From positions 36,243 to 100,242 of the forward strand of contig JADGJC010000140.1 in NCBI GenBank assembly GCA_027596075.1: 64,000 nt of DNA. The letters run 5' to 3'. Below, piece by piece: positions 32,965 through 56,679 of this stretch. Numbering within the stretch: the first letter of the stretch is position 1; each line of letters opens with the position of its first letter. The DNA comes from Rhizophlyctis rosea (taxonomy: Eukaryota; Chytridiomycota; Chytridiomycetes; Rhizophlyctidales; Rhizophlyctidaceae). The notes beneath the pieces are model-generated. The model searched no databases, had not been told where the DNA came from, and saw only the letters and a list, made by a program, of their open reading frames with translations. The translations under genes and the position numbers were made by a program.

Positions 32965-33660
32965 TTACTTCGACCAAAAACTTGTAAAATGAAAAAAGAA
33001 GAAAAGTATGGTACAATAAAAGAGAAGAAAAAAGTTCCTTCGCCGCAACAACAACATAAGTAAAAGCCTCCCATATCCATACGACAAACTATAATACTCC
33101 GTATGCGCTATTCCAACTGCTGCAGCAGCGGGAACTTCCTTGGGGGCCATTGTTGATGTTGTTTGTGTTGGGTTGGAGGAGTGAAAAGCGGGGGCCTTGC
33201 CATAAAGCAACATGAAAGACTATACCAAAAAAACTTGAATCCAAAATCAATGGATTATACCCCCCACCCTAAACTATACCCCGCCAGCAGCGCGGGAACT
33301 TCCTTGGGGGCCATTGTTGATGATTGTTTGTGTTGAGTCGGAAGAGTGGAAAGGTGTTGTGTGTGTTTTGCAAGTCGATTGTAACGCGAGGTGAGGGTAC
33401 TCTGAGATGTGGGGGGCGATAGGATGGAAGTATCAGTAAACCAACACACGCGCGCATGATCACGGAAGGGAGTAGATTCGGCAGAGTCTTCCATTGCTTT
33501 CCGTCTAGACGATGTATATTGTCAACCCACCCACCATCTGGTTCAGGTTTGACGAAGGCCGCCAGAGTTCCAGCAATGGAATCGTCGTCAGGGGAGGGGA
33601 TGGGGGAAGGGGACTATCTATGTGATATGGGGGAAGGGAACAACGCATTGCATACCTGAC
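32965..33660 (-). other. Relic 3' flank of an exonuclease module
   Basis: The sequence is homologous to the 3' flanks of the exonuclease genes at 44.4 and 53.3 kb. Shared blocks include CTTCCTTGGGGGCCATTGTT (twice here), GTTGATGTTGTTTGTGTTG with GGAAGAGTGGAAA, and a CCACCATCTGGTTCAGG block with GAGTTCCAGCAATGG following. It is probably the former 3' UTR and downstream region of the broken exonuclease copy at 33.7-34.1 kb. Confidence 0.5.
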
Positions 33661-34052
33661 TTTATGCGTCGCAACCGCTCCACTGTTTGTTCATGCTGAT
33701 TGTAATAGTATCTTGAAGAATCTACCTGGCTTGAGCGGGGGATGTTTGCGTCTCCAGCCGGTACCAAATGGAACGGAAGATATTGTCCGTTGCCCATGCG
33801 TCGAGGGATGCATACTCAAGCTTCTCGAAAGGCAACCCCTCCTCACTCCACCTAACATGCCTCATCGGTACCTCGGTCAACGAGCAACCCAAGAAAATTT
33901 CACAGAGACGGTCCAATCCACAACCATCTCGTCGGGCATCGTTTGCCTTTTGCTGCTGACCCGTGGCCTCTCAAAATGCTATCGCATCCACCACCACCTG
34001 CCCCCGCTCCGGCCGTCCCTCCGCCTGCTACGTTCGCGTTGGGATTGTTCAT
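33660..34052 (-). pseudogene. DEDDy exonuclease paralogue 3, internally deleted
   Basis: From an ATG at 34052 the minus strand reads MNNPNANVAGGGTAGAGAG, the glycine-rich start typical of the family. It then passes almost directly, in another frame, to LDRLCEIFLGCSL and LEYASLDAWATDNIF. These match the end of the 44 kb copy (LSRLCELFLG and KKYAMLDAWAVENVF). Motifs I and II and everything between them are missing; only motif III (Tyr, Asp) survives. A TAG stop follows SPAQAR, and recognisable C-terminal sequence (ILQDTITISMNKQ) continues after it. The copy therefore carries an internal deletion, a frame change and a nonsense codon, and cannot make an active enzyme. Confidence 0.72.
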
Positions 34053-34189
34053 TGTGCTTCAAAGTTGGAGGTTCGTTTCCCGACAGCAAAGAGAAGGTGG
34101 GAAGTGAAGGTGAGCTTTTCACATATCTTCAGAATGTCGTGTCAATGACTCAATCCATACTTTGATTTTGATACTGATCCAGCTGTGAG

Positions 34190-34300
34190 TCATGATGAGG
34201 CAGTGGCACAGCATAATTGTTACGTAAGAGGGCAATCTGAGGTCAATCAAAGGTGACGCACGATTCTCGCTTGCTCCGCTTTCTTTTTCTCCCTCGCGAC
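34190..34300. promoter_or_regulatory. Divergent module promoter (copy C)
   Basis: GTTACGTAAGAGGGCAATCT is followed by GGTCAATCAA and a CTCCGCTTTC pyrimidine block ending CGACATTC. The same order occurs at about 46170-46275 and 54590-54660, between the minus-strand exonuclease and the plus-strand RNA. TTACGTAA is a bZIP-type palindrome. The function is inferred from position and conservation. Confidence 0.45.
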
Positions 34301-34925
34301 ATTCTGCATCAACATGCAGTTATCGACTCGTCGCTTCCATCACCACCGACACCACCCATCCATCCAAGGTCATGTATATTTCCCCATCAGCACCATCATA
34401 CAGTTACCACTGCTCATTTTTCAACCCCCTAGACCCACCCACCAAAAAACTAACACGTCTGAGACCTCTTCACCTCCCAAACGTGGTAAGCGAAATGCCG
34501 GTACGAGCAAAAGATGTGAGGGAGCAACCATGCAACACTGCGGGGATCAACCTGCCCTTGGAACTCGGGGGTCTCCCCGGGAACTTGCCCTATCTCCCTT
34601 TTTGGAGAGGGCGACGACTCTGGTACGGCTCCTTGGGGGCCGGCGGGGTTTGGAAGGGATTGAAGGGCGCCACGCGGGTCGGAGTGTGGTTGCAGCATCT
34701 TTCCGGCTTAGCTGTAAGGTGTTTGTATACTTCAGCAATGGTAAGAATCGTTTCCTTCGTGCTTGTTTCTATCGGTCAGGAATACTTTACTGATAGTTTC
34801 AACCGCCGAGGGACAAACCGCCAAGTCACAAGCTCAACGAATTCCCGCTACCAAGAACTCTCAAGCTTCGAAACAAAATGGGTTCTGGCAGTTTCTGCTC
34901 CTTGTAATACAAACTAAATAATATA
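34300..34925 (+). ncRNA. Candidate structured RNA, copy C
   Basis: The 5' exon-like part ends before a GTAAGC donor at 34486, followed by AAATGCCGGTACGAGCAAAAG. Two adjacent hairpins follow. The first has CTCGGGG facing CCCCGGG (about 34565-34582). The second, in GCCCTATCTCC to GGAGAGGGC, closes a CTTTTT loop (about 34585-34612). Next come GGTACGGC, a GGCCGGCGGGG block and CATCTTTCCGGCTTAG. The 3' end has GGTTCTGGCAGTTTCTGCTCC then TTGTAATACAAACTAAATA. An open frame of 181 codons overlaps the region but is not preserved in the sister copies, so I treat it as chance. Confidence 0.5.
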
Positions 34926-35820
34926 CCGCTTCGCAATTTACTTTGGTACAAACAACAAGATCTAATATGTCTTCGATAAAGATGTCTCTTTATAGTCTCC
35001 ACAAATCATTTACATCCAATATGCTGTCATCCCCTGCGCACAGGAGACTGGACCCATCTGATGCCGTAGTGGATGGGGACGAACGTCCGATCTCCAAAAG
35101 GATTCAACATAATCTCCTTCTTCCCTCACAAAGCCCTCAAATCGCTGGTGGGATTTCCATCATTCCCATTGCTTCATGAGTGACCGCGGTACCGGCAGCG
35201 TGGAGAGCGAAACGAAGGGTTGGTCTTTGCGTTCTTCGGTTAGGACGTCGACGAGGAAGAAGAGGCGGTATTTTGTGACTATTATGAGGGTGCGCGGAAC
35301 GATGCGGGGGGTGGAGGAGCCGTTGAACAGGTAGGCGCTGGTGAAGTAGTTTAGTATTGAGTGGAGTTGGATTGCAGTGAGATATTCGCTACATAAGTAT
35401 CTACCGCAAAATGCAATAGCTTCTAGTTTGGGATCTTCCAACAAGGAGCGAAGCTAGTGATTCAAACCGTTCCCTCTCGTCCGCTCCCACCCGTACAGCC
35501 GGTTCCTGAGTCACCCCAAACACGATCAGCTACTGAGCAGCGATGCAACTAACTCCGCATGATACTTACTAAATAGTTCCGTCATCTCCCCTGTCCGCTT
35601 GTCCAAAACCGTTATACATGTTCGCGTTCCATGAGCAACCGGGACTATGATCCAATTTGTATGAGTCAATGGCGTTTTCAAACTCCACAGCGGCCAAACT
35701 CATACCCTTACCACTAATCTGATGTATGCCCCTTCTTATCCAAACCCCCGCTGATGCGCTGGTGCGCCGCGGGCGAAGGGTGTTGAATCGGGGAGTTGTT
35801 TCTACGCTTGAGAATATAGT
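34926..35820 (-). other. Probable exon-containing region, gene not resolved
   Basis: On the minus strand a 95-codon frame at 35444-35160 reads like protein: CGRYLCSEYLTAIQLHSILN, then a hydrophobic IIVTKYRLFFLVDVL. A donor or acceptor pair to a neighbour could not be fixed. It may belong with the ankyrin-like ORF upstream. I cannot name a family. Confidence 0.25.
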
Positions 35821-36147
35821 CTAGTCCTTATCGACCTTCCAGTCGTTTGATGAACGGAAGAGGGGTGAGAACATGACGAGAGACGTCGCTGCATGGCCAC
35901 CACATAGTCCCGCCATCAAGTGGTTTACGTCTGCGCCCTTCATGAGTAGGTGTCTGACAGCATCATACTTACGGTTCGTAGGCAACTCAAGACACGTTCG
36001 CCCTTCACCATCCGTTACGTTTAGTTCCATTTTAGAGAAGTGGTGAAACAATAGTCGTAGCACGCCCGTCGCGAAATCGTCGGTGGGAGTTGCAGAATGT
36101 GTAGAGAGTTGTTTGGTTATATCATGAGGGTTTCTTCGTCGAGGCAT
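35821..36147 (-). CDS. Short ankyrin-repeat-like protein or fragment
   Basis: This frame of 108 codons starts MPRRRNPHDITKQL. Residues 50-90 follow the ankyrin consensus: LNVTDGEGRTCLELPTNRKY then DAVRHLLMKGADVN. Only one clear repeat is visible, with a partial repeat on either side. Natural ankyrin proteins usually have several repeats, so this is either one exon of a larger gene or a relic. Ankyrin repeats mediate protein binding and indicate no specific pathway. It sits inside the region that separates the RNA from the RRM-like gene in this module; the other two modules lack it, so it may be an insertion. Confidence 0.4.
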   Translation of the reverse strand: MPRRRNPHDITKQLSTHSATPTDDFATGVLRLLFHHFSKMELNVTDGEGRTCLELPTNRKYDAVRHLLMKGADVNHLMAGLCGGHAATSLVMFSPLFRSSNDWKVDKD

Positions 36148-37390
36148 AGTAAGAGGGATTGGACCACGGGTGCGGGTTCGAGGAGCTTCACGGCGGAGTT
36201 TCTGTGTTGGAAGTGTTAGAAGGTCTGGAATTCCTCCTCGTTGTGATTTTGCTATAACTTACAGAGCTCTCACAAAGGTGGACGATTCGATGTGGTTTAT
36301 CCAAGGTACATCACCACGCCGCGGGACCTCACGCGAGAGTTTTTCGGAACTGTTGGTACGATAACTTCGTCGAAACTGCAGTGCTCGACTGCTCAATCCT
36401 CAACTGCACAAACCTGTGACGCACTCACTGATGATACTGAGAAAACGCAACTGGGCACCATCGCATAGCGTCCAGTGAGGGTGTCACCTTGCATCCAAAC
36501 CTTGGCACTAGTGATATATCCGATCAATTATCTGAGCAAGCGTTAAACAGCGTGCAAACATTCGCGTACCTGATATTCCGAAAGAACTTCAATGACGCGA
36601 CGATCACTGGTTGAGAAAGGATCCCATTGGAAGTTGCGAGGTTTTCGGAACCGCGGTGAGCTTGTTACTTTCCATTTCTGCATGTCCATAGGCACTTATG
36701 TCAGTGTGAAGTTTGCTACGCTTCGAGAGAATGATTTTGCAAGACGTACCATCAGGACAGAAGATGCGGGACTGGTCTCTCAGTTTCTGTTGAAGAATGG
36801 TAAGGTTCTGCCCACATGTCAGCACATGCTTTGCAACGTCAGCACTCACTGCTCGACAATCTTTGCCAAGTACTTTCCAACTTCCTCATGCAAGACTTCA
36901 AGTCCTTGGTAGACTTCAAGTCCTTGGTGGACTTGTGAACCGCGCAGTCGTGGACGCTCGGTCTGTTCAACGCCATGACTCGGCCGTTGGCCAATGCGTT
37001 GCGGCTAAGAATCTCAGGCATCAATAATTCGGAAACCAAATCTTTACATGCACCAATCTATCACTCACCCCATTATCCTCTTCTCGCTCGGAATCGCTTC
37101 AAAACATCCTCGCTCGGCCGCCTGTTCTCATCGAGCAATTTATGACTGTACCCCTCCAACAACTGGTTGAACTTCTGCCAGTCCTCATCGCCTTTCGTGA
37201 CCTTCTGCAACGCCCGCCGCGACGAAAAGAGAAAACGACCCATCCCCTCGCACAAAATTCAAGAGGCATAGCTCAGCGGCAAGGAACGCCCACATCCGTA
37301 CACGCATTCAAAGATTCGGGGCCATATAGTCAAGCAACACTCTGCACCACCGCCTTCTTCCCCGCACTCCCAACCTCCCAAAACTCTCCT
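36148..37390. other. Unresolved region with possible exons and a small tandem repeat
   Basis: Minus-strand frames at 37255-37073 (GDEDWQKFNQLLEGYSHKLL) and 36849-36604 look partly coding but could not be joined. An 18-bp unit AGACTTCAAGTCCTTGGT is repeated about 2.3 times at 36892-36930. No product is supported. Confidence 0.25.
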
Positions 37391-38015
37391 TCAACGCCCC
37401 TCCCCACTCACGTTCCCTCCAGCAACCGAACTCTCCGGCGTCGGACTCCTCCTAACAGTACTCAAAAAGTTGATCACGCTCATCCTCGCGCTCGCCGAAC
37501 TCTTCTTCGTCCAATTCCGCTTGTACGTATCAACGAGGTAAGTAAGCTGGACGCTATCGAACGTCCCACGACGGCGACGACAACGAACGTAATCGATGGG
37601 GTCTAGGGGTGTCATGCTGGCTTCGATTAGGATATGACGACCAGGACGGGAGCACAGGAGCACGGTCGAGCCGTGCGACGCAGTGGATGGCTGTAGCGGG
37701 ACCGTCGGGTGTATCTTTTGACCCGATGCTGGCGAAACCGTTGTCGCAGAGTGAGAGGAAGGATTGGAGGGTTGATCGCGGGTTTACGCCGCCGTCTTTG
37801 AAGGGCCAGTCGTGGCAGGCGATCAGTTGGGAAGTTAAGCGGACGCTATCGTAAGTTGGTTCGCAGAGACGGACTATGTCAGTTACAGAGCGGGAGTTTA
37901 GTTCTTCCATGTAGAGGTTGAGGTTTTCTTTGGTATGGCAGTCGAGGATTACGAAGTGGAGGTTGCGGAATTCGACATCGGACATGATGCGGGAGAAGGG
38001 GATTCGGGCAGGCAT
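37391..38015 (-). pseudogene. PRL-type (PTP4A) phosphatase pseudogene
   Basis: The frame from ATG 38015 matches PRL/PTP4A phosphatases. It has FRNLHFVILDCHTKENLNLY, then VTDIVRLCEPTYDSVRL, HDWPFKDGG and the active-site loop. PRLs carry HCVAGLGRAPVL; here the loop reads HCVARLDRAP, keeping Cys and Arg but replacing both glycines. Directly after it the frame is lost. The matching downstream part (HILIEASMTPLDPIDYVRC and GTFDSVQLTYLVDTYKR) is in another frame. The break is explained by what looks like a short duplication of GTGCTCCT plus a one-base loss. In the living family the enzyme is a small prenylated dual-specificity-like phosphatase; no C-terminal CaaX box is visible here. The damaged loop and frameshift together argue for a dead copy. 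Confidence 0.65.
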
Positions 38016-38239
38016 CCTTGTTTGTGAGGTTGTTCTGAGGGTTGGTGTTGTGTGGTATGGTTTGGTCCGTCCTAGAACGATGCAGCAACCTTTCGTTGGG
38101 TTTGTGCGAGAGTAGCAAGCCCAAAACTGAAACAGATAACACTTTGGTCGACGTCGAGGGGAGCGCTGCAGAAGGAAAGCGATGGAGAAACTGTGGACGA
38201 GTATGAGTGAAGGGGTGCAAATGAATGAGACTGTCTTGA

Positions 38240-39084: not shown

Positions 39085-41875
39085 ATGCCGAACGCACTAA
39101 CGACAGCGCAGTTCAAACCCGCCGATCCCCGTACACCGGGTGGGAGTGTAGACATCACATCGGTTAGCTTTGAATTTGACGAGAACAGCCCTTTCGGCAC
39201 ACCCGCACAAAACACCGTACAGTGGATCACGCTACGGAACACCCCTGCCGGAATCAAAAAAGAAGACAAACATAGAAAATTTCTTCCTCCCGCTGTACAA
39301 CCGTGCATACAGAGGGTGGACGGGCACCACCCCGTTCCTCCCAACACTACCGTCAGGGACGTATCCTTCCTCCTTGGCGACGTCAACGCCGCAAACAATC
39401 TGATTGGCACAACAGTATCCTGTACCCACGGTAACTTTCCAGTTGTGGCGGGGCGGCTAGTGGCTCCACGAGCGCCGATAGATGGGCCATTTGCGGTCCA
39501 GCCAGAAACGCGACTTGGTGAGTTCATGTGATGTAGATTCTCCTTTATTTGTTTCATAGTCCCTTTGTCTGTGAGTGGTTTGGGAGATGATGAGCGCGAC
39601 ACCTTCTCACGTCATTGGACCATGTCATACCACCTGACACAATATTCCCATTACATAGCAACAACCAATCCGGCCACCCTTCGCATCTTCCTTCCCGCCG
39701 ATATAACTGCGTATCCGCCCGAGAAAAGTACAGGTCAGACTCAGACGCACGAATTTCTTCACGTGTTTTTCAATTCGCGGAAGGATGCGGAAGAGTACCA
39801 AACCGAGATCAAGCCTCTTAGGGTGAGTTTCGAGTATCAATACGAGTGCTCATTTTGAAGTTCATTCTCACGTCAAGTTGATTCGCTCTTTGCTCACTGT
39901 TTGGATGGACGCAGCTGGAGTCACAGGTGGCTACTGGGCGGATCGGAGACGAGAAGACAACAATCATCGATAGGCAGCGGTTCATCGACCCTGTCGAAGG
40001 TTTAGCATCCGCTTCCTCATCCTCCGGCGGTAGTGGTGCAGCCATGGCACTCCAACAGCGTCACCCGCGGCAACTTTCCATCAGCACGCCAAGCGCATCA
40101 ACACCGGCACCCGTTCCCGCCTTTCCAATCCCACGCTGCCTCAAACTCCACAACAACAGCATCCCAACCCCAACAACACACAACCACTCCCGCCCCTCGC
40201 AATCCCTCCAACGCCGTCAGCACCGTCTATTATCGTCCAGCCCATCGCACCAATCAACGCTCCCGCATCAGCAGCCCTCACACCCATTTCTGCCGCCTCA
40301 GACCCATCATGGACATCAACTACCAGCACCAACAATATCGCACCTCCTCAACCTCTCTCCGCAACCACACCCACCGAACCCACCGCTGCTAGTACCACGA
40401 CTGGAACGGAAACGGACGTTGCAAACGGCACAGCTATCGCGCCAGAGTTGAAGTGGTACAGCGGAATCACAGTTACACCATTCAATCGAACCTGCGTCAG
40501 TTCTTGGTACGTTTTCACCTCCTCCGCGGATTCACTTTATCAATGATGCCATCTTGGGTGTTTTGATCGAGATTTCGATCAATTGGATCCTTCTTTTCCT
40601 TTTTCGCAGTGGTGTGCTTGAATCTCACATCTTTCATCTCTGCCCCTTCCCACCTTTCACAGGATCAAGCAAACGGAACCGACTGCAATGCCGTATATTC
40701 CTCAGACCGGTGACTTCGTAGCGTATATCAAAGCTGGTCACGAACATTTCGTCGCCGAGTCGGGTGCGCTGTTGGGACTTTCGAGAAGTGAGCTTGGCGG
40801 AGTTGACGGGGGAGTTGATTCGGTGATGTTTGGCGAGGTTGTTGAGGTGGTGATTTTGTGTAGTCAGTTGGAGATTATTTGCGTTGAATTGGAACTTTGG
40901 GAGTCGAGTGGTGATACAGCGGGTGGTAAGGGGAGCGTCAGTGCGGCGGGTCGGGTGTCACGTCCGATTCGTGAGAAGATGCATCCCGTCGTCGTTGACG
41001 GTGCAGTTCGGAAGCTTAAACTCTGTTTTGCGATTACGGAGGAGTTTTCGGATTTCATCATTCCTTTCGAAGTGTTCGTTACGTCCATTTACGATATGGA
41101 GTGGGTGGTGGGGGAGAGGGTTGTGGGACGGTATGGGGAGGAGGAGTGGGGAGGGGTTGTTGAAAGTGTTGGGGAGGAGATGTATACTGATTGTTGGGAA
41201 TGTGTTACTCTTAAGTGGGAAGGGTTTGGTGCGGGGGTGGGGACGTTGAGCCCATGGGAGGTTAAGAAGGATGGCGGACGGTGGGCTTCGGAGAGTAGGG
41301 TCAGACTTGGGGTGGAAGGTAGGCTTTCGTCGCGGATTCATATTGCATGCCATGTTCCAATCCATAACATTGACTCGCATATATAGAAACAAACGAAATC
41401 GTCACCATCATCGAAAACTTCCGCGACGACCCTGCCAACTCCATCTTCATAGCCGACACCACAACGCACGGCCGTTCGCAACATCTCGGAACGGTGGCGT
41501 ATCCTGTCTCCTGGGCTATACTCGAAGAAAGATTGAAGAAGGGGTACTATTGGTCGAATAAGGTAAACAAAGACGTCCTACTATCCTTTCAATATCCGCC
41601 TTTCCTTCATCCCATCACTGATTGATGCAACGAATCCTCCCATCCACCAGAGCGTTGCGTTCGATCTTCGTGCAATGGCGAATAATGCTAAGCAACTTCA
41701 CCCGGAGGACGAGAGTATTTGCACAGCAGCGGATACGTTGCTGGACATTGTCTGTGAGAACGTCCTGAGTGTTTCCGCGCAGGATAAGGAGGGCAAGAAG
41801 CGGAAAGAGAGAGAGAGTGGGAGCGAAGAGGAGGGGGACGCAAAGGCGAAGAAGGTGAAGGTGGTGGAGGAGTAA
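39085..41875 (+). CDS. RRM-like/cryptoTudor/bromodomain protein, copy C (one frameshift)
   Basis: Six exons match copy D in phase: 39085-39517, 39659-39822, 39915-40506, 40663-41318, 41387-41562 and 41651-41875. Exons 1-2 encode two RRM-like blocks (NTVQWITLRNTP and HEFLHVFFNSRKDAEEYQ). Exon 3 is a Ser/Pro/Gln-rich linker of 592 bases, where the D pattern requires length 2 mod 3, so one base is missing or two are added. The frame moves from AFPIP to LPQTPQQQ. Exon 4 resembles the cryptoTudor region of PHIP/BRWD proteins: MPYIPQTGDFVAYIKAGHE at its start, and WECVTLKWEGFG with LSPWEVKKD at its end. Exons 5-6 form a bromodomain-like helix set (YPVSWAILEERLKKGYY, MANNAKQLHPEDES) with His where canonical bromodomains have the acetyl-lysine-binding Asn. 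The tail is lysine-rich. The gene would be a chromatin reader if expressed; the frameshift could be real decay, an unseen intron or an assembly error. Confidence 0.58.
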
Positions 41876-43700: not shown

Positions 43701-44425
43701 ACCCTGAAAACTACTATTACATTACACAAATGAAACACGAAAAGTATCTTACAAAAGCAAAGGGGGAAAAAAACACAAAACCAATACTCCGCCAAAAACT
43801 GAAAAGAAAAAAGGTCCCAAACTCTACATCTGAACAAAAACCCGAACATGCCCCAACAAATATCCCGCACTACGTGAAAGAAACTACCTATTCCCGTGCT
43901 ATGGAAGAAAGCGACGGATTTCACGGAGGGCGACGGTACCGGGACTATGAGGGAGGATTACTGTTGATGTTGTTTGTGTCGAGTTGGAAGAGTGGAAAAA
44001 GGCAGCGATGTACTGGTCTGCTACTGAAAAATGGGTGTCTTTGTTGATGTTGTTTGTCTTGAGTTGGAAGAGTGGAAAGGTAGCGATGTACTGGGATGCT
44101 ACGGAAACTTGAGTGCGAGTGTTGATGTTGTTTGTGTTGAGTTAGAAGGGTGGAAAGCGCATGTGTGGAATGGTAAATGGTGGGAGTGGTATGAGGGAAG
44201 GGTCAGTAAATGAATACATTTCGGTGGGATGAAAGGGGGAGAGGGGTGGGCAGACGTTCCATTTGCCTGTCCCCCGGTGCAGGACCAATCATCTAACCCG
44301 ACCACCAAATCTGGTCCAGGTGTGACAATGACCGCCAGAACTTGAGCAAATGGAAGTCGCCGTAATCACCGGGAAGAGTCTATCTGTGCGCATAGAAAAG
44401 CAGAACGAAAATTTGACGAAATAAC
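43700..44425 (-). other. 3' flank of exonuclease paralogue 4, with tandem repeat
   Basis: A block of GTTGATGTTGTTTGTNTTGA then GTTGGAAGAGTGGAAA, with the flanking GCGATGTACTGGGCTGCTAC-type stretch, is repeated three times at about 43960, 44045 and 44120. Single versions occur at the equivalent place 3' of the other exonuclease copies (33300 and 52905). The segment ends with CACCAAATCTGGTCCAGG, also shared. Confidence 0.6.
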
Positions 44426-44429
44426 GTAC

Positions 44430-45854
44430 CTAGTAATCATAGCCAGCACCCTGCTGATGCATGCTCTCGTCCAAGATTGATTGCACGGTTTGACGGGCTA
44501 CGGCGGCACCGACTGCAGTTTCCAGCCGATAGTATATGGACCGAAAGACGTTTTCGACCGCCCATGCGTCTAGCATTGCATACTTCTTCTTCGACAGCGG
44601 CAGCTCCTTCCGCGCCCATGAGATCCCGTGCCCAGGTGCCCTTGTCAACTCGATACCCAGGAACAACTCGCAAAGCCTCGATAGGCTCATCTTCGTCTTC
44701 CTGGCTTCCGCTGCATATTGATGATTGCCGGTGAGATCCCAGTACCGTATGGCGAGCTGGTCGATTTCGAGGATGGAGCGGCACTTCATCTTTCGTCTTG
44801 GGTCTCCCACCGGAAAAGATGTGTCTTGGATCTCTTCGAGGCACTTGATGTCGCCATAGGCGTCGTGCGCAAGTTTGATGATTCGCCTCTCTTCGATGAC
44901 CCTGCGGAGGGAAGAAGGGATTCGACGGAGGTGGGCGATATGGGCTTCGAGCACATCGTATCCGTTGTTCCTTTGACACCCCAGCTGCACAAGAGCTGAT
45001 ACTTGTGAGTTATCCGACAGATGCTCGAACTCCGTGTCGAATCCCAGAAATTGATATCCTGGGATGAGGCTTCCGTTACGAGCGGCATTGAAGTACGTGG
45101 CCGATAGGGATTCTACGACGTCGGGGTCTGCGCTGAATTGGGTTAGCATCTTCTGGTAAGGGAGCGGCTCGAGGGTTTGGTGAAGGATAGGGCGGTCGAT
45201 GTACATTGTCTGTAGGGCAATTTTCTGGTTGCGCTCAAGGGTATTATTGGACTCCGCGACAAATGCATCATGCCTGATGGCATGTGCAGTCCAGAGTGGC
45301 GTGGCGGGGTTCGGACCTAATCCCCTTCTCCCGCCGGGAGCGTTCCCAACCCCCGCCCCTCTTCCAGCCGCACCTCCGCCAGGAGCATTCGCAACCCCTG
45401 CCCCTCTTCCAGCCGCACCTCCGCCGGGAGTGTTCCCAACCCCAGGCCCAGTCCCAGCCGCACCTCCGCCAGGAATGGTCCCAGCCCCGGCCCCTTTCCC
45501 AGCCGCACCACCACCCCTCCCAACACCCACCACCGTCCCTGCATTTCCGGTGCCCTGAACCCCACCCCACCCAGCGCCACTGCCCCTGCCGGCTCCACTA
45601 CCACTGCTCCCTACACCGTTGCCCCTCCCTCCTGCAGCACTGACGCCCGTCCCAGCACTCGCCATCCCACCAACGCCCCCTGCGACGACCCCTCCACCCG
45701 CCGTCCCCACCCCGTAACCCCCAAACTGGAAAGCATACCCTTCCCACCATTTCCAGTCTCCGTTGGGCCTGGAACGAACCACCCATCCTCCGTCTGTATA
45801 GGGAGCAGACCGATTGCCCCCACCCCCACCGGCAAAGTTCGCTTGTGCGACCAT
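44430..45854 (-). CDS. DEDDy-type 3'-5' exonuclease-like protein, paralogue 4 (intact)
   Basis: This is one open frame of 474 residues. Residues 1-185 are low-complexity Gly/Ala and include four imperfect 16-residue repeats of the type PGGGAAGRGAGVGNAP (about 127-174), encoded by C-rich tandem DNA. The catalytic core has GFDTEFE (Asp273, Glu275), KLAHDAYGDIKCLEE (Asp335) and KKYAMLD (Tyr425, Asp429), a complete DEDDy set. GDPRRKMKCRS lies between motifs II and III as in the other paralogues. The C-terminus is QQGAGYDY. DEDDy enzymes of the RNase D/WRN group trim 3' ends of structured RNA or DNA; the structured RNA encoded divergently next door is an obvious candidate substrate, but that is inference only. 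The glycine-rich N-terminus differs from paralogues 1 and 2 in length and repeat type. Confidence 0.7.
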   Translation of the reverse strand: MVAQANFAGGGGGNRSAPYTDGGWVVRSRPNGDWKWWEGYAFQFGGYGVGTAGGGVVAGGVGGMASAGTGVSAAGGRGNGVGSSGSGAGRGSGAGWGGVQGTGNAGTVVGVGRGGGAAGKGAGAGTIPGGGAAGTGPGVGNTPGGGAAGRGAGVANAPGGGAAGRGAGVGNAPGGRRGLGPNPATPLWTAHAIRHDAFVAESNNTLERNQKIALQTMYIDRPILHQTLEPLPYQKMLTQFSADPDVVESLSATYFNAARNGSLIPGYQFLGFDTEFEHLSDNSQVSALVQLGCQRNNGYDVLEAHIAHLRRIPSSLRRVIEERRIIKLAHDAYGDIKCLEEIQDTSFPVGDPRRKMKCRSILEIDQLAIRYWDLTGNHQYAAEARKTKMSLSRLCELFLGIELTRAPGHGISWARKELPLSKKKYAMLDAWAVENVFRSIYYRLETAVGAAVARQTVQSILDESMHQQGAGYDY

Positions 45855-46280
45855 TGTTCACACGCGCTCTGGTATGGTGCTTCCCGACAGGATAATGAAC
45901 AGGCGAGTGGGAGAGTGTGCGAGATTGTGAGGGAGTGTGAGTGAGATTGGAGTGTGCTTGAGGGAATGGAAGCAGTACAGGCACCGGGAGTGAAGTGGGG
46001 GAGAGCAGCTTTACCATTGAGGAAGTTTGCAAAGTGGAGATCGCGCCGATCGACGCGTCAATCACCCCTGATCGCGTCAGCAACCCCCAGCCACCCCCAG
46101 CCACGCGCCATATTCCGGATGAGTCATCACAAGTCAGTCACCCCCGACAGTGGCACAGTCGGGATTTTACGTAATGAGATCGACAAGCGATGCCCAATCT
46201 GATGCTCATGAAAGGAGGACAGGATATGGTCAATCAAGAATGAAGGCCGACTCCGCTTTCCTCTTTACCCCACGACATTC
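45855..46280. promoter_or_regulatory. Divergent module promoter (copy D)
   Basis: Between the exonuclease start and the RNA are TTTTACGTAATGAG (about 46166), GGTCAATCAA (about 46228) and CTCCGCTTTCCTCTTTACCC then CACGACATTC. These match copies C and E in order. CACTC-type GAGTGTG repeats near 45905-45960 may belong to the exonuclease 5' UTR. Confidence 0.45.
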
Positions 46281-46885
46281 TCAACCTCAACAGACGAAAC
46301 GGTATGCATCCACAATATAAGCTATCACACAACTCTCCACCAACTGACATTTCGCCCTCTCCATTCTCCCAACCAGATGTCCAACCCGACTTGAAGCCCA
46401 CCCGCCCGTGTTCGTGTCTTCCTCCCCACCTGGTAAAGATGTGCCGGTTGGAGCAAAAGATGTAAAAGACCAAAAGGTCACAATCCACGATGCGGAGCTC
46501 TATGGGTGTGAAACCGGCCCCTGGAACCTGGGTCTTTTAAGACTTGGGGACTTGCCTATCTGCTTTTTGTGGATGGCGGCGACCCGGTACGGCCACTTTG
46601 GGCCGGCGGTGTATGGAGGGGTGGACTAGCGGTCCATCAACTGAGGCGGTCGTTGGATCATCTTTCCGGCTAGGTTTGTAGAGTAATGAATTCCTAACTA
46701 AACGGTAAGCAACCATTCCTCAGCGATTGCATTCAGTTTGAATTGGATAGTTGCTAATGTGTCAAATTCTCCCGAGGAACAAACCATCTACGTATGGGGC
46801 AAGCAATAGCATCAGGAAGATACGTTGGTCCTGGCAGTTCTAACTCCTTGTAATGTATCATAAATAGTGTTTCGTAATATACAAA
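46280..46885 (+). ncRNA. Candidate structured RNA, copy D
   Basis: The 5' part ends CCCCACCTG before GTAAAG (46433), followed by TGTGCCGGTTGGAGCAAAAG. Hairpin 1 is GGGTCTT-TT-AAGACTT (about 46526-46545), a different sequence from copy C but the same shape. Hairpin 2 is GCCTATCTGC closing TTTTT with GTGGATGGC (about 46551-46575). Next come CCGGTACGGCCACTTTGGGC, GCGGTGTATGGAGGGGTGGA and CATCTTTCCGGCTAGG. The 3' end has GGTCCTGGCAGTTCTAACTC then CTTGTAATGTATCATAAATA. Frames are not conserved with copy E; there is a one-base length difference across the T-loop. Confidence 0.5.
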
Positions 46886-47400
46886 TTATTCTCTCTCATA
46901 ATGTTTCGTGAAACTGGAGAAGGTGAAGGGTCATTTTGTCAAGTTCGCGTTTATGGTCTTGGACCCTCGATAGTTGCACGTAGCGCCACCAGGAGTCTCT
47001 CACATGCAGCTGCATTACAGGTGCTTACCCTCCTTACCAAGGAGCGTACACTTGGGATGCCGCATCATCGGGTAATGGTAACCATCCGTGAGGTAGCACC
47101 AGCAATGCAGACTTGCGAGCGTGCATGATCCCAATTCTTAGTACTTCTCGCCACAGGATCATGTGCTATTACCACTATTTGGGTCTCTCCCCTCGGGTAC
47201 AGCCGGAGCATTGCACTGGGCATGGTTGTGCACTTGGCGCGGATGCATGGCGCCAGCCAGGCCCAGGACTCATGGCGGGTTTGGGTTTAGGTTGAGCATA
47301 ACGGGGTTTAATGGATTGTCTTCACTCTCATATTTTGATTGTTCCACTCCTGTCCTCCCAACTTGCTCCTCTAAAGTTTCATATAGTACCTAGATACGAA
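46886..47400. other. Spacer between RNA copy D and the RRM-like gene
   Basis: No gene is supported. It should contain the promoter of the gene at 47401. I see no clear similarity to the corresponding spacer of module E. Confidence 0.3.
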
Positions 47401-50359
47401 ATGTCTGCTACCCCGAACCTCGACGCCGCTGACTATGACATACCAACTCCCCGAGCTCCAGGACAAGCTATCGACATAACGACTGCGCTGGATAATACCT
47501 ACGGCCCTAAGACAGCTTTCCAACCCCCCGCTGCCAATTCCATCCAATGGGTCAGAGTCATCGGCCTCCCCGTCGAGCTTACCAAAGTCGCTACAATCAT
47601 GAAACAACTTCCCGAGTCGGCGCGGTCTTGGGTCGTAGATTATCAACGACTTCCTCATCACGACCCGACGATACAGAATATCGACTATCTGATAGGCAGC
47701 CTAACCGTAGCCAACCAACTTCTCGGCCCTCGTCATGTACAGACTCCCGGTGGAGTGCGTTCCATCGTTCCTGGTCCTATCGTGCTGCCGCCGCCAGAGT
47801 TCAGTGGAACATCAGCTGCCCAGCAGCACGCGCGACTCCGTAAGTTGAGATGATGTAATTGGGTTATCAGTTTTTTTTACTTGTTTCACATGGCAAGAGT
47901 GGGGATGGCGGACGCATTATGCATGGGCTGTCAGCGGGTTGTCTTGCATCAAGTGACGCCGTATCACGAGGGTTGTCTCATTAACTTGTCTTTCACCATC
48001 TGGCAGCCACAACATATCCAGCGACCGTTCAACTTCAACGCGGTACGATTCCGCTGAACCGCACGGTGCCGGATTATCGTCTCGACCGACGGCTGCATGG
48101 AAATGTTATCGATGTCCATTTTGCGTCGGAGGAGGATGCTAAAAGGTATCGTGCGAGTATAGCGGCGCTCGAGGTGAGGGCTTTCCATCAGGCTTTTGAG
48201 TCAATGGGTAATGGGAGTTGCGGAGGTTTCAGTTGTGTTGTGTTTCAAGCTTTCGATCCTCATGCCATTGGCGCTTTCCGCTTTCTTTTCTGGGTGTCGT
48301 TTTAGGTTGATTCACTACTCCTGAAAGGTATTATTGGGAATGAGGACGATCCGCGGACCGACCGTGAACGAGACTTGGACGAAGTCGACGTGCCCGTCCC
48401 AGCCTCCAGCAGCAGCACCTCTACGCAACCGTCGTCTTCATCATCATCAAGTCAACCAGCACCGAACAATGCGCAAACACCTTTTTCCCAACAACCGAAT
48501 ATCCCCATCATCCCTCCTCCTCACCCTCACCTGCCCACCAACCCTCTCAACACACCACTCCCGAACTCGAACGACACCCGCCCCGCCCTCCCCTCCACAA
48601 CCATTCCCTCCGCATCTTACCTCCCCTCCCTCACCGCGCCCGCATCGATTGTGCCCACTCCATCTTCCATCCCTCCACCAGTCGCGTCAGCAAACTCGGT
48701 AGATACTGGTACCAATGTGAATCCTATAGGGCAGGTGGAGCCGAACGCGGTGCCAAAGGTCGAGTCGACGGCTGCTGTTGCGCCGGGGCCGAGTGATGCG
48801 GGGCGGTTGAATGAGAGTGTGGCGATTAACGTGCCTGAGAAGTGGTTTGCGAGGTTTAGTGGTGATGGATCCGTAAAGCGAACGAGAATTAATGATTGGT
48901 AGGTTGGTTTGGCTCTGTCGAGTGCTGCAGTTGCCTTTCTGCATCGCCCCCTTTCCGCCTGGCACTTTCCGTGCTTTCTGCTTCAGCGTGGAGAAGAACG
49001 TCAAACCAAAACTGCTTTCGTACTCCACTTTTCCTCATACCAGGCTCATTTCAACCACCCCGTCCCCGAAATTGATATCCCAGGTGGGCGACTTCGTCGC
49101 CTACATCGCCCGTGGCCATGCCGAGAACAACTCCATCGCTCGAGCCACATACTCGCTCCTCAACCTCCCTACCTCCGCTCCCGGCGGCGTCGACCCGAGT
49201 TTGGGGGATATTGTGTTTGGTGAGGTTGTTGAAATGGACGTTATGGCGACACAGCCGGAGATGGTTTGTTTGGAGGTTGAGGTGTATGTTAGGGATAGTG
49301 GTGGTGCGGTGGAGGGGGGTAGTGGCGGTGATGCGGGGACGGTGTTGAGCGGGAATGGGGGTGAGGGGTCCAGCAATGGGAGTGCGGTGACATCAACGTC
49401 TGGCCGTAACGGTATGCGACCGGTGCTGGTCGACGGGGCGCAGAAGACGCTTCGTATCGCTTTTGTGGTTATGGATGCGTGCGCGGACTTTGTCGTGCTA
49501 TATGACCAGTTTGTTGATTGTGTGCTTGGACGGAGGTTGGAGGTTGGGGAGAGGGTTATTGGGATGTGTGCGGATGGGGAGAGGGGTGGAAAGGTTATTG
49601 GGGTTGCGGAGCATGTTGAGAATGAGTGTTGGAAGGGTGTGAGTGTGGAGTGGGATGGGAGTGAGGGGAAGGTTGAGGGAGTTGGCGCTTGGGAGGTGAG
49701 AAGGGAGGGTGAGGGGTGGGCGTGGGAGAGGAGGATGTGTTCAAGTGGTGAAGGTACGCTACTCTTCGGCATCATTCTTTCTCAACAGCAACATTCGTTG
49801 ATTTCTTCCCCAAACAATGCAGTCAAACACCGCATCGAATTCATCTTCGCCAACTGCAACAACAATGCGACATTGACGTCGGTGTTTGCCGAAGCGGACA
49901 CACATGCGGAGGCAAAGCATATGGGAGTGATCTCTTCTCCTATCACATGGACAATGATTCAAGGCCGCTTGGCTAACGACTATTATCGAAGTGTCAAGGT
50001 AGATATGCAACAATCATGCTCATGGAACATTCACTTTATTCCTGATTGACTGGTGGAAAGTAATTGCCATAATGTGTGCTTTCCAAATCTAGGCTATCGG
50101 CGCGGACATTCACACTCTGTGCGAGAACATCAAACTGGTGGAGTCAGATCAGGCCGGGATTACGGCGTTGATTGGGTTGAGGGAGGAGGTGTTGGGTGTT
50201 GAGACCGGCGTTGGGTTGGAAGGGGATGAGGGGAAGAGGAAGAGGGATAGGGATGAGGACGAGGAGGAGGGGGAGGGAGGAGGGTGGAGAAGAAGGCGAA
50301 GGCGTTGGAGTAGTTTAGTGATTAGGTGTATGGTAGACTCTTCAGTCAAATTATTTTAG
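47401..50359 (+). CDS. RRM-like/cryptoTudor/bromodomain protein, copy D (intact)
   Basis: Six exons join in frame to 783 residues: 47401-47839, 48007-48173, 48306-48898, 49044-49753, 49823-49998 and 50093-50359. Residues 1-200 hold two blocks with RRM-like strand-helix patterns (SIQWVRVIGLPVELTKV, IDYLIGSLTVANQLLG; then VIDVHFASEEDAKRYRASI). Residues 203-400 are a Ser/Pro-rich linker. Residues about 415-630 resemble the PHIP/BRWD cryptoTudor region: SQVGDFVAYIARGH, ADFVVLYDQFVDCVLGRRLE and CWKGVSVEWDGSE. Residues 640-730 resemble an atypical bromodomain (SSPITWTMIQGRLANDYY, then IGADIHTLCENIKL) without the canonical Asn. In animals PHIP/BRWD use this pair to bind methylated H3K4 nucleosomes; the WD40 repeats of that family are absent and replaced by the RRM-like half. 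The last residues are basic and run about 15 codons past the stop implied by copy C, probably after a shift. Confidence 0.65.
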
Positions 50360-52600: not shown

Positions 52601-53250
52601 ATAAAAAATGGAAGGACTTCCTCTCCAAAAACTATATTTTTTGATGTGCAAAATTCAAAAAAGTTATAATACAAGAAAAGAAACACAAAACCAATGTTCC
52701 GCGCTAAATTAAAAACTCCAACCGCATCCACAAAAGCACAAACCACCCCATGAAACAGAAAGCCCAAACTCGATTAAAACTAGCTATTCCCATGCTACGA
52801 CGGCAAATGGGAGCTTCCTTGGGGGCAATCGTTGATGTTGCCGCGGAGTTATAGCGACGGATTTCACGGAGAGCGACGGTACCAAGACCACGAAGTAGTT
52901 GATGTTGTAAGTTGGAAGAGTGGAAAAGTGTTGTGAGTGTTTCTGACGGTTGATTTTAGGACCGCATTGTAGGATGTTAAGCACTGTTTGATATGGGGAG
53001 GAGATGGTGTAAGGTTATTATGCATTTTCGATGAAAAGGGACGGAAGGGAAAGAGGGCTAGACAGCTATCCCATTGCTCTCTGTTCTGGGGATGAATCCC
53101 TGTCAAACCGACCACCAATCTGGTCCAGGTAGGAACAGTGACAATCCCAGAACTCGAGCAATGGAAGCGTCTTCGCCGGGGAGAGAGGGGGGGGGAAAGA
53201 GTGAAGACTATCTAAGATGTTGAGCAACTAACAGAGACCTCGGGCTGTGA
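52600..53250 (-). other. 3' flank of exonuclease pseudogene 5
   Basis: It is homologous to 43740-44400 and 32970-33660. Shared blocks are AAACACAAAACCAAT, CTTCCTTGGGGGCAATCGTT, GACGGATTTCACGGA then GCGACGGTACC, AGTTGGAAGAGTGGAAA and ACCAATCTGGTCCAGG. It probably corresponds to the 3' UTR and module boundary. Confidence 0.55.
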
Positions 53251-53256
53251 CATACC

Positions 53257-54345
53257 TTAGTAATCAAAACCCGCGCCTTGCTTGATCAACCCCTGGGTAA
53301 TAACTCGTTGAAGGATTTGCTGGGCGGTTGCGGGGTTGGTGCGGGATTCGATGCGGTGGAAGATGGACCAGAATACTATATGGTTCGTCCAAGGGTCCAA
53401 TCAGGCGTACTTCTTTTTGAGGAAGGGAAGGTCTTTTGTTGCCCATGACGTGCCAGAGCAAGGTGCCTTCGCCAGCGTAAATCCACAAAAGATCTCCGCA
53501 AGTCGCGACAGCGCGACTTTGTTGTTCTTGGCCTGGTTTGCAAGGTCTTGTTCCCCAATAAGTTCCCAGTACGCGATCGCCATGGTGTGAATCTCCAAGA
53601 AAGACCTGCACTTCATCCTTCGTCTCGGGTCCCCCACCGGATAGCTGATGTCCTCCAGTTCCTCCAGCGTCTTGATATCCCCGCTGGCGTCATGTGCCAG
53701 TTTAATGACTTGGCGGTCTTCAACTACTCGCCGGAAGGAGGAAGGGATACGGTGAAGGTGCGCAATGTGGGCTTGCAACACGTCATAACCGCCGTCTCTC
53801 TGGCACCCGATTTGGGTGAGTGCCGCCACCTGTGACTGATCCTGAAGAACTTCAAACTCGCAGTCGATTGAAAGGAACTGAAAGCCAGGAAGTACGGGCG
53901 AGGTTGGGGTAGCTTGCGAGAAGTATGTGGCAGCAAGAGCTTCCACGATGTCGGGATCCGCGGTGAAACTTGTGAGGATTTGGCGGTAGGGAAGGGGCTC
54001 GAGGGCGGGGTCGAGGTTGGGACGGTCAATGTGCAGGGACTGCATGGCGATCTTTTCATTTGGAGCGAGGGCGGCCGTGGAATCTCGGATGAATGCTTGG
54101 TCCCGGGTCGCGTGCGTTTGCCATCGATTTTGAACGGCCGTCTGTGAAACCGCAGCACCTCCCCCCCCAGCCGGCCCTGCCCCACCCCCCATTCCGTTGT
54201 TAACACCCCAAACCACACCCCAACCACTACCACCCCCCCCCGTACCGGGAAAACGACCCACCACCCACCAAACCATCCCCCCACCACCTCCCATCCCGCC
54301 CCAAACGCTACCTCTACCCCCACCACCCCTACCAGCAGACAGCAT
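53257..54345 (-). pseudogene. DEDDy exonuclease paralogue 5 with stop codon in motif III
   Basis: From ATG 54345 the frame reads MLSAGRGGGGRG and a Gly/Trp-rich N-terminus. The core then has SIDCEFE (motif I) and KLAHDASGDIKTLEE (motif II), and is otherwise well preserved to FLKKKYA. There a TGA at 53401-53403 replaces the codon that is Met in paralogue 4. Sequence beyond it continues in frame and is clearly homologous (LDPWTNHIVFWSIFHRIE and GLIKQGAGFDY) to a TAA at 53257. The stop falls inside YA-x-LD, so a terminated product would lack the last catalytic Asp. Reading the TGA as recoding is possible but unsupported. Loss is probably recent because the rest of the frame is open. Confidence 0.7.
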
Positions 54346-54660
54346 GATTGAATGTGTAGGTGGATGTAGGGAGATCGGTATCGCGAAATGTCGCGGACAG
54401 TGAATGTGTACAGAGGTGAAAGAATGAGTTAGGAGGAATTTCATGATGCGCGGGTCCTAACATCCCACTTTGGGTGCCAAATGTCGATCAATCTGATTGC
54501 GTAACGTTGTGCCAGCCACACGCCACGGGTTCTGGGTCAGACTGATTCATTAAGGCGAAGTCACTACGCGCTCAATGGGACAGGCGGGTTACGTAAGGAG
54601 GGCAATCTTTTGGGTCTTGGTCAATCAATGGTCGTCGCTTTTCTCCTTCCCTCACAACAT
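54346..54660. promoter_or_regulatory. Divergent module promoter (copy E)
   Basis: GGTTACGTAAGGAGGGCAAT, a GGTCAATCAA box (about 54618) and a TTTTCTCCTTCCC block then TCACAACATTC lie between the exonuclease relic and the RNA. The order is the same as in copies C and D. Confidence 0.45.
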
Positions 54661-55275
54661 TCACGGCATTTCGACACACTTGCAAAGTACGTACCTTCCA
54701 TCCCGCTATCCATCAATTCATCTCACGCATCCATCACGCATCCATCCATCACACTCTAGATTCAACATATAATTGCCATGGCGTGCCCGTGTCGCGCATT
54801 TTCCCCACCAGGTAGGTGCATGCCGGTTGAAGAAAAAGATAGCAACCCCATTCGACATTAAGGGGCGCGCTGCTTCTCGCGAAACCGGCCCTTGGGACTT
54901 GAGTCTGACTCGGGAACTTGCTTTCCTCCTTTTTGGAGAGGGCAACGACAGCGGTACGGCCACTTGGGGGTCGGCGGTGTATGGAAGGGTGGTCGGTCCA
55001 GGAGTGGGGGACGCCGCGTATTTGGGGTAAAAGCGTCTTTCCGGCTAGGTCTGTTTAGCAGATATATAATTTTTTGAAAGGTGGGCAGTCGTTCCATTGC
55101 TGTTTGCTTGTGTGTTGAGTGAATCCATGCTAATGTCATTATCTTTACCGAGGAACATACTACCGTTTCGCAAGCAATCCAGCGCTTCATCGAATCTACC
55201 CCAGGAACAAGACGATTGGTCCTGGCAGTTCAAACTCCTTGCAATGTATCAAATACACAAATAATATATGATCGC
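54660..55275 (+). ncRNA. Candidate structured RNA, copy E
   Basis: The 5' part ends TTTTCCCCACCAG before GTAGGT (54812), then CATGCCGGTTGAAG. GAAACCGGCCCTTGGGACTT precedes hairpin 1, GAGT-CTG-ACTC (about 54902-54912). Hairpin 2 follows as TTGCTTTCCTCC closing TTTTT with GGAGAGGGCAA (about 54917-54944). Next come GCGGTACGGCCACTTGGGGG, GCGGTGTATGGAAGGGTGG and CGTCTTTCCGGCTAGG. The 3' end has TTGGTCCTGGCAGTTCAAAC then TCCTTGCAATGTATCAAATA. Conservation with copy D spans about 600 bases, including both ends. That is far more than expected for decaying spacer in modules whose protein genes are breaking. Confidence 0.5.
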
Positions 55276-55769
55276 TCTCGCGAGCATATTTCCATAAAAT
55301 TCAGTGATATTATCACCTCATCGTCCAGCTCTTTGTGAGAGCACTGAATATGACATTCAGGAATGTCCTTGAGGAACGCGAAGAAACGCGTCCCGCCACA
55401 AAGTCGTATCTGCACGTGGGTCTGCATGAACGATGCTTCCCCTGCATACCACCATATGCATCTAGGGTGACCGAGTTTTGGGTGCAGGGACCTGCGGACA
55501 AGCGCGAAAGGGTACCATGCATGGCGCGACTGTTGCACCACAATGGTCTCTTGGGACACTCTGAGTCAGAATGGGGCATTAACATGCTTTTGCACTTGAC
55601 AGGGGGGTATATTGGCGCCCATCCAGACGTCAGGATTGCAAGAGGGGTTCAGAGTCTGGCTGAGGTAGCGGGGGTTTTGATGTTGTTTTTCATATTGCCG
55701 ATCTATGAGTGTGTGGACTCTCATCCAACTCTCCATAGTTGTTACCTTTTCTTCAATGGACAATAGAAA
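55276..55769. other. Spacer between RNA copy E and the short RRM-like gene
   Basis: A 143-codon frame (55335-55766) overlaps but shows no motif. I see no supported gene. It should contain the promoter of the gene at 55770. Confidence 0.3.
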
Positions 55770-56679
55770 ATGCCTCCAAGGAAAACTATTAAGACTCTCG
55801 GCTTCGAGCCCGTCCAGCAAATACAAGGCCAGCCAGTTAACTTGGCAAGGTTTGACAACTCCACCAGCAGCGGTTTCAGCTACAATGTCCCTACCGACTA
55901 CCGAATCCAATGGATACGAATAAATGGTGTACCTTCCTACCTAAACACCAAAAAGCTCCTTCTACGCTTTCTCCCAACCCGCCTACAAGAGTACGTCCAT
56001 AACTCTCGGATAGTGGGACACCACCACCCCTCTTACAACGACGTCGAATATCTCCTCGGAGATATCCATATTGCTTCGCAACTGATAGCAGTGGGTCATA
56101 TCAACACCTCCAGCGGGAGGTTGGATGTTTTTGGAGGCCAAATCGTTCAGCCCCCGCCGAACATCCACGGGCCGAGCGACGCACAACTTGAGCCTCGATT
56201 GGGTGAGTTTCAGTGATGTAATGATTTGTCTAGTGTTTCAGTTCATTATGAGGGAGACAAGTGAAGGAGAGCGCGACACTATCACGTCAGTGGAGTCAGA
56301 TTCAGAATGATTTCTAATGCATATGTTTTATGACAGCCACGCGAACTCCTTGTTATTTTCGCATCCGCAAAACCGCCATTGCAGCTGCCCATACGAACCC
56401 CTCGTATTGCATCGGCCGTGATGACTCCGGGCTCTTCTACGATGTGTACTTCAATACGTATGATGATGGGTTACGCTTTGAGTGCCAGATCCGACAACAT
56501 ACTGTGAGTGTTCTTTTGAGGAGTCGATGCCGCCAGTGGTTTTCTCTGATCCGACTGCACAAGTTCGACTGATTGTTTTCTAACTTCCGTTGCCTTCTTG
56601 GCGTTCTCAGACACTGACCTGGTCCGTCAGAAAAACACTCAATAAACGTTGCCGGCGGAATTTCAAGTTCACGCTTTGA
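55770..56679 (+). CDS. Short RRM-like protein, copy E (N-terminal module only)
   Basis: Exons 55770-56202, 56337-56503 and 56611-56679 join to 222 residues, with the same phases as copies C and D at both shared junctions. Block 1 is YRIQWIRINGVPSYLNTKKL and VEYLLGDIHIASQLI. Block 2 is YFRIRKTAIA with LFYDVYFNTYDDGLRFE. After the second junction the paralogues enter the linker and chromatin-reader part. This copy instead has a 23-codon basic exon (TLTWSVRKTLNKRCRRNFKF) and stops. It could be a truncated relic, or a free-standing version of the RRM-like half. The two RRM-like domains are inferred from strand/helix patterning; the aromatic RNP motifs of classical RRMs are not clear. Confidence 0.5.

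Follow-up and report, generated by a model that had tools for sequence, protein, structure and literature searches.

Repeated gene sets in the window

The window analysed here is a stretch of 64,000 nucleotides from the chytrid Rhizophlyctis rosea (C47:36243-100242, in an assembly of 44,103,614 bases and 634 contigs; other contigs are written in the same way), and the subject of this report is a structured RNA found in it several times beside genes for DEDDy-type exonucleases (PF01612) and for proteins with RRM-like blocks. Six chitin synthase N-domain matches exceed the cut-off, as would suit a fungal source, and none was obtained in 14 control genomes. An earlier note on this DNA had described a threefold duplicated module of exonuclease, RNA and RRM-like gene. 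Comparison of the window with itself gave three stretches (units 1-3, or U1-U3) that are common in order and orientation; each of them has a 3' flank, exonuclease similarity on the minus strand, the conserved RNA on the plus strand and then an RRM-like exon. The flank is repeated at 33.1-33.4, 43.9-44.2 and 52.85-52.93 kb, and the RNAs lie at 34549-34658, 46510-46624 and 54881-54992, plus strand, with 78-79% identity in both pairs that blastn gave. The co-duplication is genuine, though incomplete, the unit 1 exonuclease being a remnant, and the RNA is its strongest part. The threefold description had also overlooked two members. In a fourth set (U0) at 1.97-8.2 kb the parts stand in another order, and there are two exonucleases, one RRM-like gene and a two-core RNA gene (RNA at 7.1-8.2 kb, plus strand); a fifth RNA gene, named host gene T (21.2-20.2 kb, minus strand), has no exonuclease or RRM-like gene close by.

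A short word recurs between exonuclease and RNA: TTACGTAA has three occurrences in the 64 kb, one in each unit.

34220-34227: TTACGTAA word, unit 1, interval between exonuclease remnant and RNA
46167-46174: TTACGTAA word, unit 2, interval between exonuclease and RNA
54589-54596: TTACGTAA word, unit 3, interval between exonuclease and RNA

Behind the exonuclease genes there is a repeated word of ~37-50 bases (33122-33353, 43962-44157 and 52853-52927), present twice in unit 1, as three tandem copies in unit 2 and once in unit 3. It was seen also on C431, C112 and C197, and a neighbouring word on C46 and C312.

The structured RNA and its predicted host genes

A DNA search with the unit 3 copy led to six places, namely the three units, C13, C181 and C442, and these first six copies form a closed domain with three hairpins. 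A core model of 114 positions then gave the two fourth-set cores (7471-7596 and the weaker 7875-7984, scores below), and a DNA search with the fourth-set RNA stretch gave C28 and C209, with which the core model agrees (42.8 and 48.8 bits, respectively). Taking models, profiles and the 3'-motif search together, at least 13 loci with 14 cores, one of them a half copy, were found in the 44.1-Mb genome: U0, T, U1, U2, U3, C13a, C13b, C181, C442, C28, C209, C340 and C360. Five of the 13 are inside the window; C209 retains no more than the stretch between core and acceptor hairpin, both included, and C340 no more than the 3' half. Sequence profiles of the RNA types partly recognise each other. With two of them C360 was recovered (E 6.5e-5 and 1e-3), as was C340 at borderline values (0.071 and 0.0086). 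A combined profile of eight copies including C360 gave the C340 3' half, on which it had not been trained, with an E-value of 9.5e-12, and had no match on reversed sequence.

The fold is backed by covariation, which upholds the conserved structured RNA that had been proposed on the plus strand of each unit. RNAalifold, applied to the first six copies as aligned by MAFFT, gave compensatory changes in 7 of 33 pairs of the core and 12 of 50 of the whole domain. In an alignment of 10 cores the fold left 91.9% of cells paired, compared with 84.2% in shuffles, and cells with two-sided change numbered 24 compared with 9.9 (0 of 500 shuffles as high) and 1-7 when the structure was slid. T and C13b, two sequences only, co-fold with 10 of 61 pairs compensatory.

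Scanning with Rfam 15, which took in the window copies and not those on other contigs, no family matched the RNA domain in the window (E 1) or the unit 3 domain alone (E 10). No snoRNA (small nucleolar RNA) family of Rfam matched the window or the unit 3 domain, C/D and H/ACA boxes being checked by eye only, and the thiamine pyrophosphate (TPP) aptamer had no Rfam match in the window. Viral contigs gave 0 exact matches to the RNA pattern and prokaryote contigs 37 (rough chance estimate, 17); across those 37 stretches the sole match of the RNA model up to E 1 scored 12.8 bits (E 0.69). A core-model match of 13.4 bits near the C63 exonuclease (E 0.2-0.27) and a weak core-like match of 9.1 bits in the C13 array were left out of the count. 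The array lies downstream of the C13a RNA (L037 5660-6250) and consists of diverged repeats at a spacing of ~181 bases, whose hairpins and CGAC words recall the RNA core, 9.1 bits being the best core-model score there. At L038 ~4150-4430 (C181), minus strand, the C181 RNA is divergent from a gene that by eye resembles an L17-type mitochondrial ribosomal protein.

The domain lies in predicted introns of putative host genes, which in the window end in a 3' motif; all splice sites given here are predictions. The features in the window are as follows.

7394-7741, plus: predicted intron with fourth-set core a (7471-7596), which scores 48.7 bits (E 2.1e-11); donor and CGAG acceptor
7818-8070, plus: predicted intron with the weaker fourth-set core b (7875-7984), which scores 15.7 bits (E 0.06 in a search of 162 kb, 0.00052 in one of 1.4 kb); same acceptor hairpin
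8122-8146, plus: 3' motif, fourth-set RNA host gene; 2 mismatches, none expected by chance
20673-21029, minus: predicted intron with diverged RNA domain, host gene T; has the donors, the closing stem, a CTCCTTTTTGGAG hairpin and the acceptor hairpin; core-model score only 7.9 bits
20371-20443, minus: twister-P1-like ribozyme, last predicted exon of host gene T; RF03160, 55.0 bits, E 1.4e-9
20201-20225, minus: 3' motif, host gene T; exact match
34486-34810, plus: predicted intron from donor 1, core 34548-34659, second donor 34741 (unit 1); 113 bits
34885-34909, plus: 3' motif, unit 1 RNA host gene; 1 mismatch
46433-46776, plus: predicted intron from donor 1, core 46511-46622, second donor 46705 (unit 2); 109.2 bits
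46831-46855, plus: 3' motif, unit 2 RNA host gene; exact match
54812-55152, plus: predicted intron from donor 1, core 54882-54990, second donor 55081 (unit 3); 114.4 bits
55222-55246, plus: 3' motif, unit 3 RNA host gene; 1 mismatch

A predicted donor (donor 1) stands ahead of the domain in 12 of 14 cores, the exceptions being C209 and C340 (5' half gone). In C28, in the fourth set and in the six copies found first, donor 1 lies 57-78 bases ahead of the core, and it is present in T, C13b and C360 as well. In nine cores (U0a, U0b, U1, U2, U3, C442, C28, C209 and T) branch-like words and a CGAG acceptor come afterwards; the acceptor of the others is uncertain.

With up to 3 mismatches allowed, there are five copies of the 3' motif in the window, where none is expected; the whole genome has 13 such matches and 12 for the reversed pattern. 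New matches with 3 mismatches, C492 included, are thus at control level and were not counted (C442 was already known), and a match with 1 mismatch (C13:133446) belongs to a second T-type gene, C13b. A match with 2 mismatches at C615:79282-79306, minus strand, could belong to a further RNA host gene. By eye, the 3' motif pairs with the core in some copies; the pairing is broken in others, and the idea was dropped. Host gene T was recognised from the surroundings of the twister-P1-like match, which is below the gathering score of 67.2 though it extends over all 68 model positions; self-cleavage at this site would cut the T transcript downstream of the structured domain.

We considered whether the RNA is a leader of the RRM-like gene and rejected this, because the host gene has its own 3' motif, ending 0.5-4.2 kb ahead of the RRM-like gene, and the fourth-set RRM-like gene is on the other strand; the RNA has its own upstream words and predicted introns as well. 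The joined predicted exons of five host genes have no common reading frame (the first intron of C442 was guessed, without a GT donor). The unit 2 frame is open through three exons, however, and by eye the last exon is open to the 3' motif in 5 of 5, in the same phase in 4 of 5; a short protein in the host exons may therefore still exist. Identity between exons was 52% for U2-C13a (49% for shuffled sequence), where the cores have 86% (50%); for T-C13b the exons have 56% (52%) and the cores 78% (48%), and for U1-C442 the exon identity of 64% is above the background of 49%.

The arrangement resembles intron-hosted snoRNA genes, of which there are fungal examples (PMC2780460 and PMC3596301), in that structured RNAs lie in introns, more than one per host (here the fourth set) and in many copies. 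The RNA of R. rosea differs from them: its domain of ~230-250 nt consists of a closing stem that bears three hairpins, it has no Rfam snoRNA match, and in nine of the 14 cores (units 1-3, C442, C13a, T, C13b, C360 and C340) the domain is followed by a second predicted donor. It may nevertheless be an independent trans-acting RNA in introns of noncoding, snoRNA-host-like genes, whose neighbours share a duplication history and a divergent promoter only. This would agree with the donor ahead of the domain, with the two cores in consecutive predicted introns of the fourth set, with exons that are near the shuffled background in U2-C13a and T-C13b when cores are not (the U1-C442 exon is higher), and with the seven of 13 loci that stand alone. 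It leaves the second donor unaccounted for, no known snoRNA family matched, and the exonuclease linkage at C360 and C340 (see below) does not fit it; we regard it as a serious possibility, on balance doubtful.

The second donor suggests instead a switch in cis, in which the fold decides between donors just before and just after the domain, as in fungal TPP riboswitches, where a structured RNA likewise stands by two competing donors and one acceptor. The introns that would start at the second donor have 70-72 bases in units 1-3 and C442 (91 in T); the lengths in units 1-3 and C442 are near the 64-75 bases that the window's first predicted introns have, and the closing stem GCCGG/CCGGC starts within ~20 bases of donor 1. 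The RNA departs from the TPP riboswitch in its many copies, in lacking an Rfam match and in having no conserved coding gene downstream. No second donor was found in the fourth set, C28, C209 and C181, and there is no common downstream frame as a regulated product, so that we consider a splice switch rather unlikely. Spliceosome-cleaved fungal telomerase RNA (PMC4299874) is also a structured RNA followed directly by a donor and a short intron; the present RNA differs in its 13 loci and in the donor ahead of the domain, and a telomerase RNA identity is disfavoured because of the copy number.

The protein genes and their linkage to the RNA

PF01612 (cut-off 23.6 bits) was found above the cut-off in all four window genes tested; among units 1-3, an intact exonuclease is present in unit 2 only.

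1972-3240, minus: DEDDy-type exonuclease gene, fourth set copy a; PF01612 35.8 bits
4795-5925, minus: DEDDy-type exonuclease gene, fourth set copy b; PF01612 31.8 bits
33660-33990, minus: exonuclease remnant, unit 1; similarity with in-frame stops
44430-45854, minus: intact DEDDy-type exonuclease gene, unit 2; PF01612 43.6 bits
53260-54444, minus: exonuclease gene with in-frame TGA, unit 3; PF01612 26.8 bits

By our reading of the motif positions, the four acidic residues and the motif III Tyr appear to be present in unit 2 and in both fourth-set genes. Rrp6 and WRN are PF01612 DEDDy exonucleases as well. The genes described here share the domain with them and differ in a glycine-rich N-terminus, in the RRM-like gene as partner and, for unit 2, in having no PDB relative at E 0.01; in a search for relatives, none of 7984 scored candidates other than the protein of the window itself passed E 0.001. 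In the genome, 13 exonuclease genes stand behind 14 matches, those at C340 and C360 being known by similarity only.

6230-6721, minus: RRM-like gene, first exon, fourth set; similar to the unit 1 and unit 3 exons and weakly to unit 2, 28-24% identity
39085-39528, plus: RRM-like gene, first exon, unit 1
40664-41318, plus: PHIP/BRWD-like exon, unit 1 RRM-like gene; 37% identity to unit 2, BRWD_AD 12.7 bits
47401-47850, plus: RRM-like gene, first exon, unit 2; predicted beta-alpha-beta-beta-alpha-beta
49045-50010, plus: PHIP/BRWD-like and bromodomain-like exons, unit 2 RRM-like gene; 34-37% identity to C238 and unit 1, bromodomain 17.2 bits
55770-56678, plus: RRM-like gene without reader tail, unit 3

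The structure model of the unit 2 RRM-like block has the strand and helix order of an RRM, with a predicted local distance difference test (pLDDT) score of about 80 over residues 48-128 and 70-90 in 76 of 150 residues. The best Foldseek E-value was 0.024, RRMs being among many ferredoxin-like matches. A genome search with the unit 2 exon gave four places, in the window's contig only; its reach is short, and C340 was missed too.

The PHIP/BRWD-like tail, which had been proposed for two copies, was indeed seen in two of seven RRM-like genes (units 1 and 2), with domain scores below the Pfam cut-offs (BRWD_AD 12.7 against 40, bromodomain 17.2 against 21.7), so that on these scores the window copies do not qualify as PHIP/BRWD. 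The similarity to PHIP/BRWD rests partly on a relative at C238, whose bromodomain (35.5 bits) is above the cut-off of 21.7 and links it to PHIP/BRWD readers; the GDFVAYI..GH and SPWE blocks of the tail resemble PHIP. The window tail differs from such readers in its low BRWD_AD score and in the RRM-like blocks in front of it. The best PDB profile matches of the tail are auxin response factors, and a structure model of it was unusable (pLDDT 34.8). The tail has no match in the C340, C492 and C606 stretches, and the C238 reader-like gene has no exonuclease or RNA match in the 9.9 kb read. The chromatin control suggested by the earlier note is thus unsupported.

An exonuclease lies within 5 kb at six of the 13 RNA loci (four in the window, one of these a remnant, and C360 and C340), and an RRM-like gene also adjoins in five of these six. 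Conversely, the RNA is within 5 kb of seven of the 13 exonuclease genes; by our arithmetic, the 13 RNA loci with 10-kb windows cover ~0.3% of the genome. At C360, a strongly diverged exonuclease and the RNA, with both donors, stand head to head with the TTACGTAA word between them. At C340, exonuclease, RRM-like frame and RNA 3' half lie within ~5 kb on one strand, the RRM-like frame (E 1.1e-13, untrained) in the middle. The core model had suggested that there is no RNA at other exonucleases, which was overturned when the broader profiles found these two loci. An iterated RRM profile gave C492 beside an exonuclease (E 4.6e-5, untrained) and, weakly, C606, also beside an exonuclease, as two collinear pieces (E 0.024 and 0.12); neither was matched on reversed sequence. 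Among nine exonuclease neighbourhoods with several kb of flank, the RRM-like gene is firm in six (U0-U3, C340 and C492), weak at C606 and absent from C360 and C63. Both protein trees, that of the exonucleases (99/99) and that of the RRM-like genes (98/95), place C492 and C606 as sisters; the branch of C63 is very long, and a number of the other forks have weak support. Since the linkage is found outside the cluster (C360, C340, C492 and C606), the association is older than the cluster in the window.

The seven unlinked loci have no exonuclease match on C13, C181, C28 and C209; the two exonucleases of C442 are >110 kb from its RNA, and T is ~12 kb from the nearest one. A translated search of nine stretches around five unlinked loci gave none at E 0.01, C13b being read over 501 bases only.

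Two further observations concern the surroundings. An exon of the Urb2/Npa2 family (93.2 bits) at 8319-9065, minus strand, adjoins the fourth set, and a coding stretch at 440-923 is duplicated in inverted orientation upstream on the same contig (L046 7302-9307).

A possible RNA-protein system

We tentatively lean towards the possibility that exonuclease, RRM-like protein and structured RNA act as one RNA-protein system. Its starting points are what can be read from the DNA, namely the predicted fold with its covariation, the 13 loci and their neighbourhoods, and the predicted donor that precedes the domain. The RNA would probably be released by splicing from a noncoding host transcript; the RRM-like protein would bind it, and the predicted DEDDy 3'-5' exonuclease would trim or use it. 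Transcription, splicing, a noncoding host, action of the RNA in trans and contact of the proteins with it are what we infer. Action in trans is suggested because the RNA domain is intact where the exonuclease next to it has decayed (units 1 and 3) and where there is none; the RNA spreads and persists by itself, and therefore the partnership would have to act in trans. Such action is common to this proposal and to the independent RNA in snoRNA-host-like introns.

Several results weigh against a joint system. Seven of 13 RNA loci have no such exonuclease near, and no RNA was seen at six of 13 exonuclease genes (C492, C63 and C606, with ~5 kb of flank on each side; two on C442 and one on C145, with ~1.5 kb). 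The earlier note had held that components found apart as often as together in related genomes would speak against a functional unit; in this genome the RNA is about even, six loci together and seven apart. The RNAs of the three units do not form a single clade, U1 joining C442 (96/97) and U2 joining C13a (87/88), and the parts are not constant in order and strand (unit 3, fourth set and C340). The unit 1 exonuclease is a short remnant with stops, the TGA of unit 3 is just ahead of the last catalytic (ExoIII) Asp, the first motif of C340 is DVD and not DxE, and the C360 frame is broken. The RRM-like exons have no Pfam match, and Foldseek gave none at E 0.001. For the RNA itself, pairs with two-sided change were 10 compared with 7.3 in shuffles (39 of 500 as high) and further pair types 35 compared with 30.9 (22 of 500 as high), in a 10-core alignment that had been fitted to the model. 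What stands of the proposed functional unit is a linkage beyond one recent tandem duplication, with the RRM-like gene at C492 and weakly at C606; a strict unit does not.

The decayed exonucleases alongside the RNA, the dispersed copies and the partial copy at C209 would also suit a spreading element without host function, the gene cluster being lineage-specific tandem growth. This seems improbable to us: there are 13 loci only in 44.1 Mb, the compensatory changes point to selection on the fold, and no reverse transcriptase or target-site duplication was noticed, although no systematic search for them was made. We think it just as improbable that all the elements discussed above combine, that is, that an RNA class is cut out between two competing donors and matured or wielded by a dedicated exonuclease with an RRM-like partner, some partners being tethered to chromatin through the PHIP/BRWD-like tail, as a new eukaryotic RNA-protein system.

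In the literature, searched mostly outside subscription journals, we found no description of this association of RNA, exonuclease and RRM-like gene; the motifs named in the accessible part of PMC5640933 do not describe this RNA, and the accessible part of PMC8216456 has no matching mention. If the proteins handle the RNA, they would form with it a new RNA-protein system, and if the fold chooses the donor, it would be a new eukaryotic splice switch. Within one genome, at loci long diverged, the RNA has kept company with the exonuclease and the RRM-like gene.

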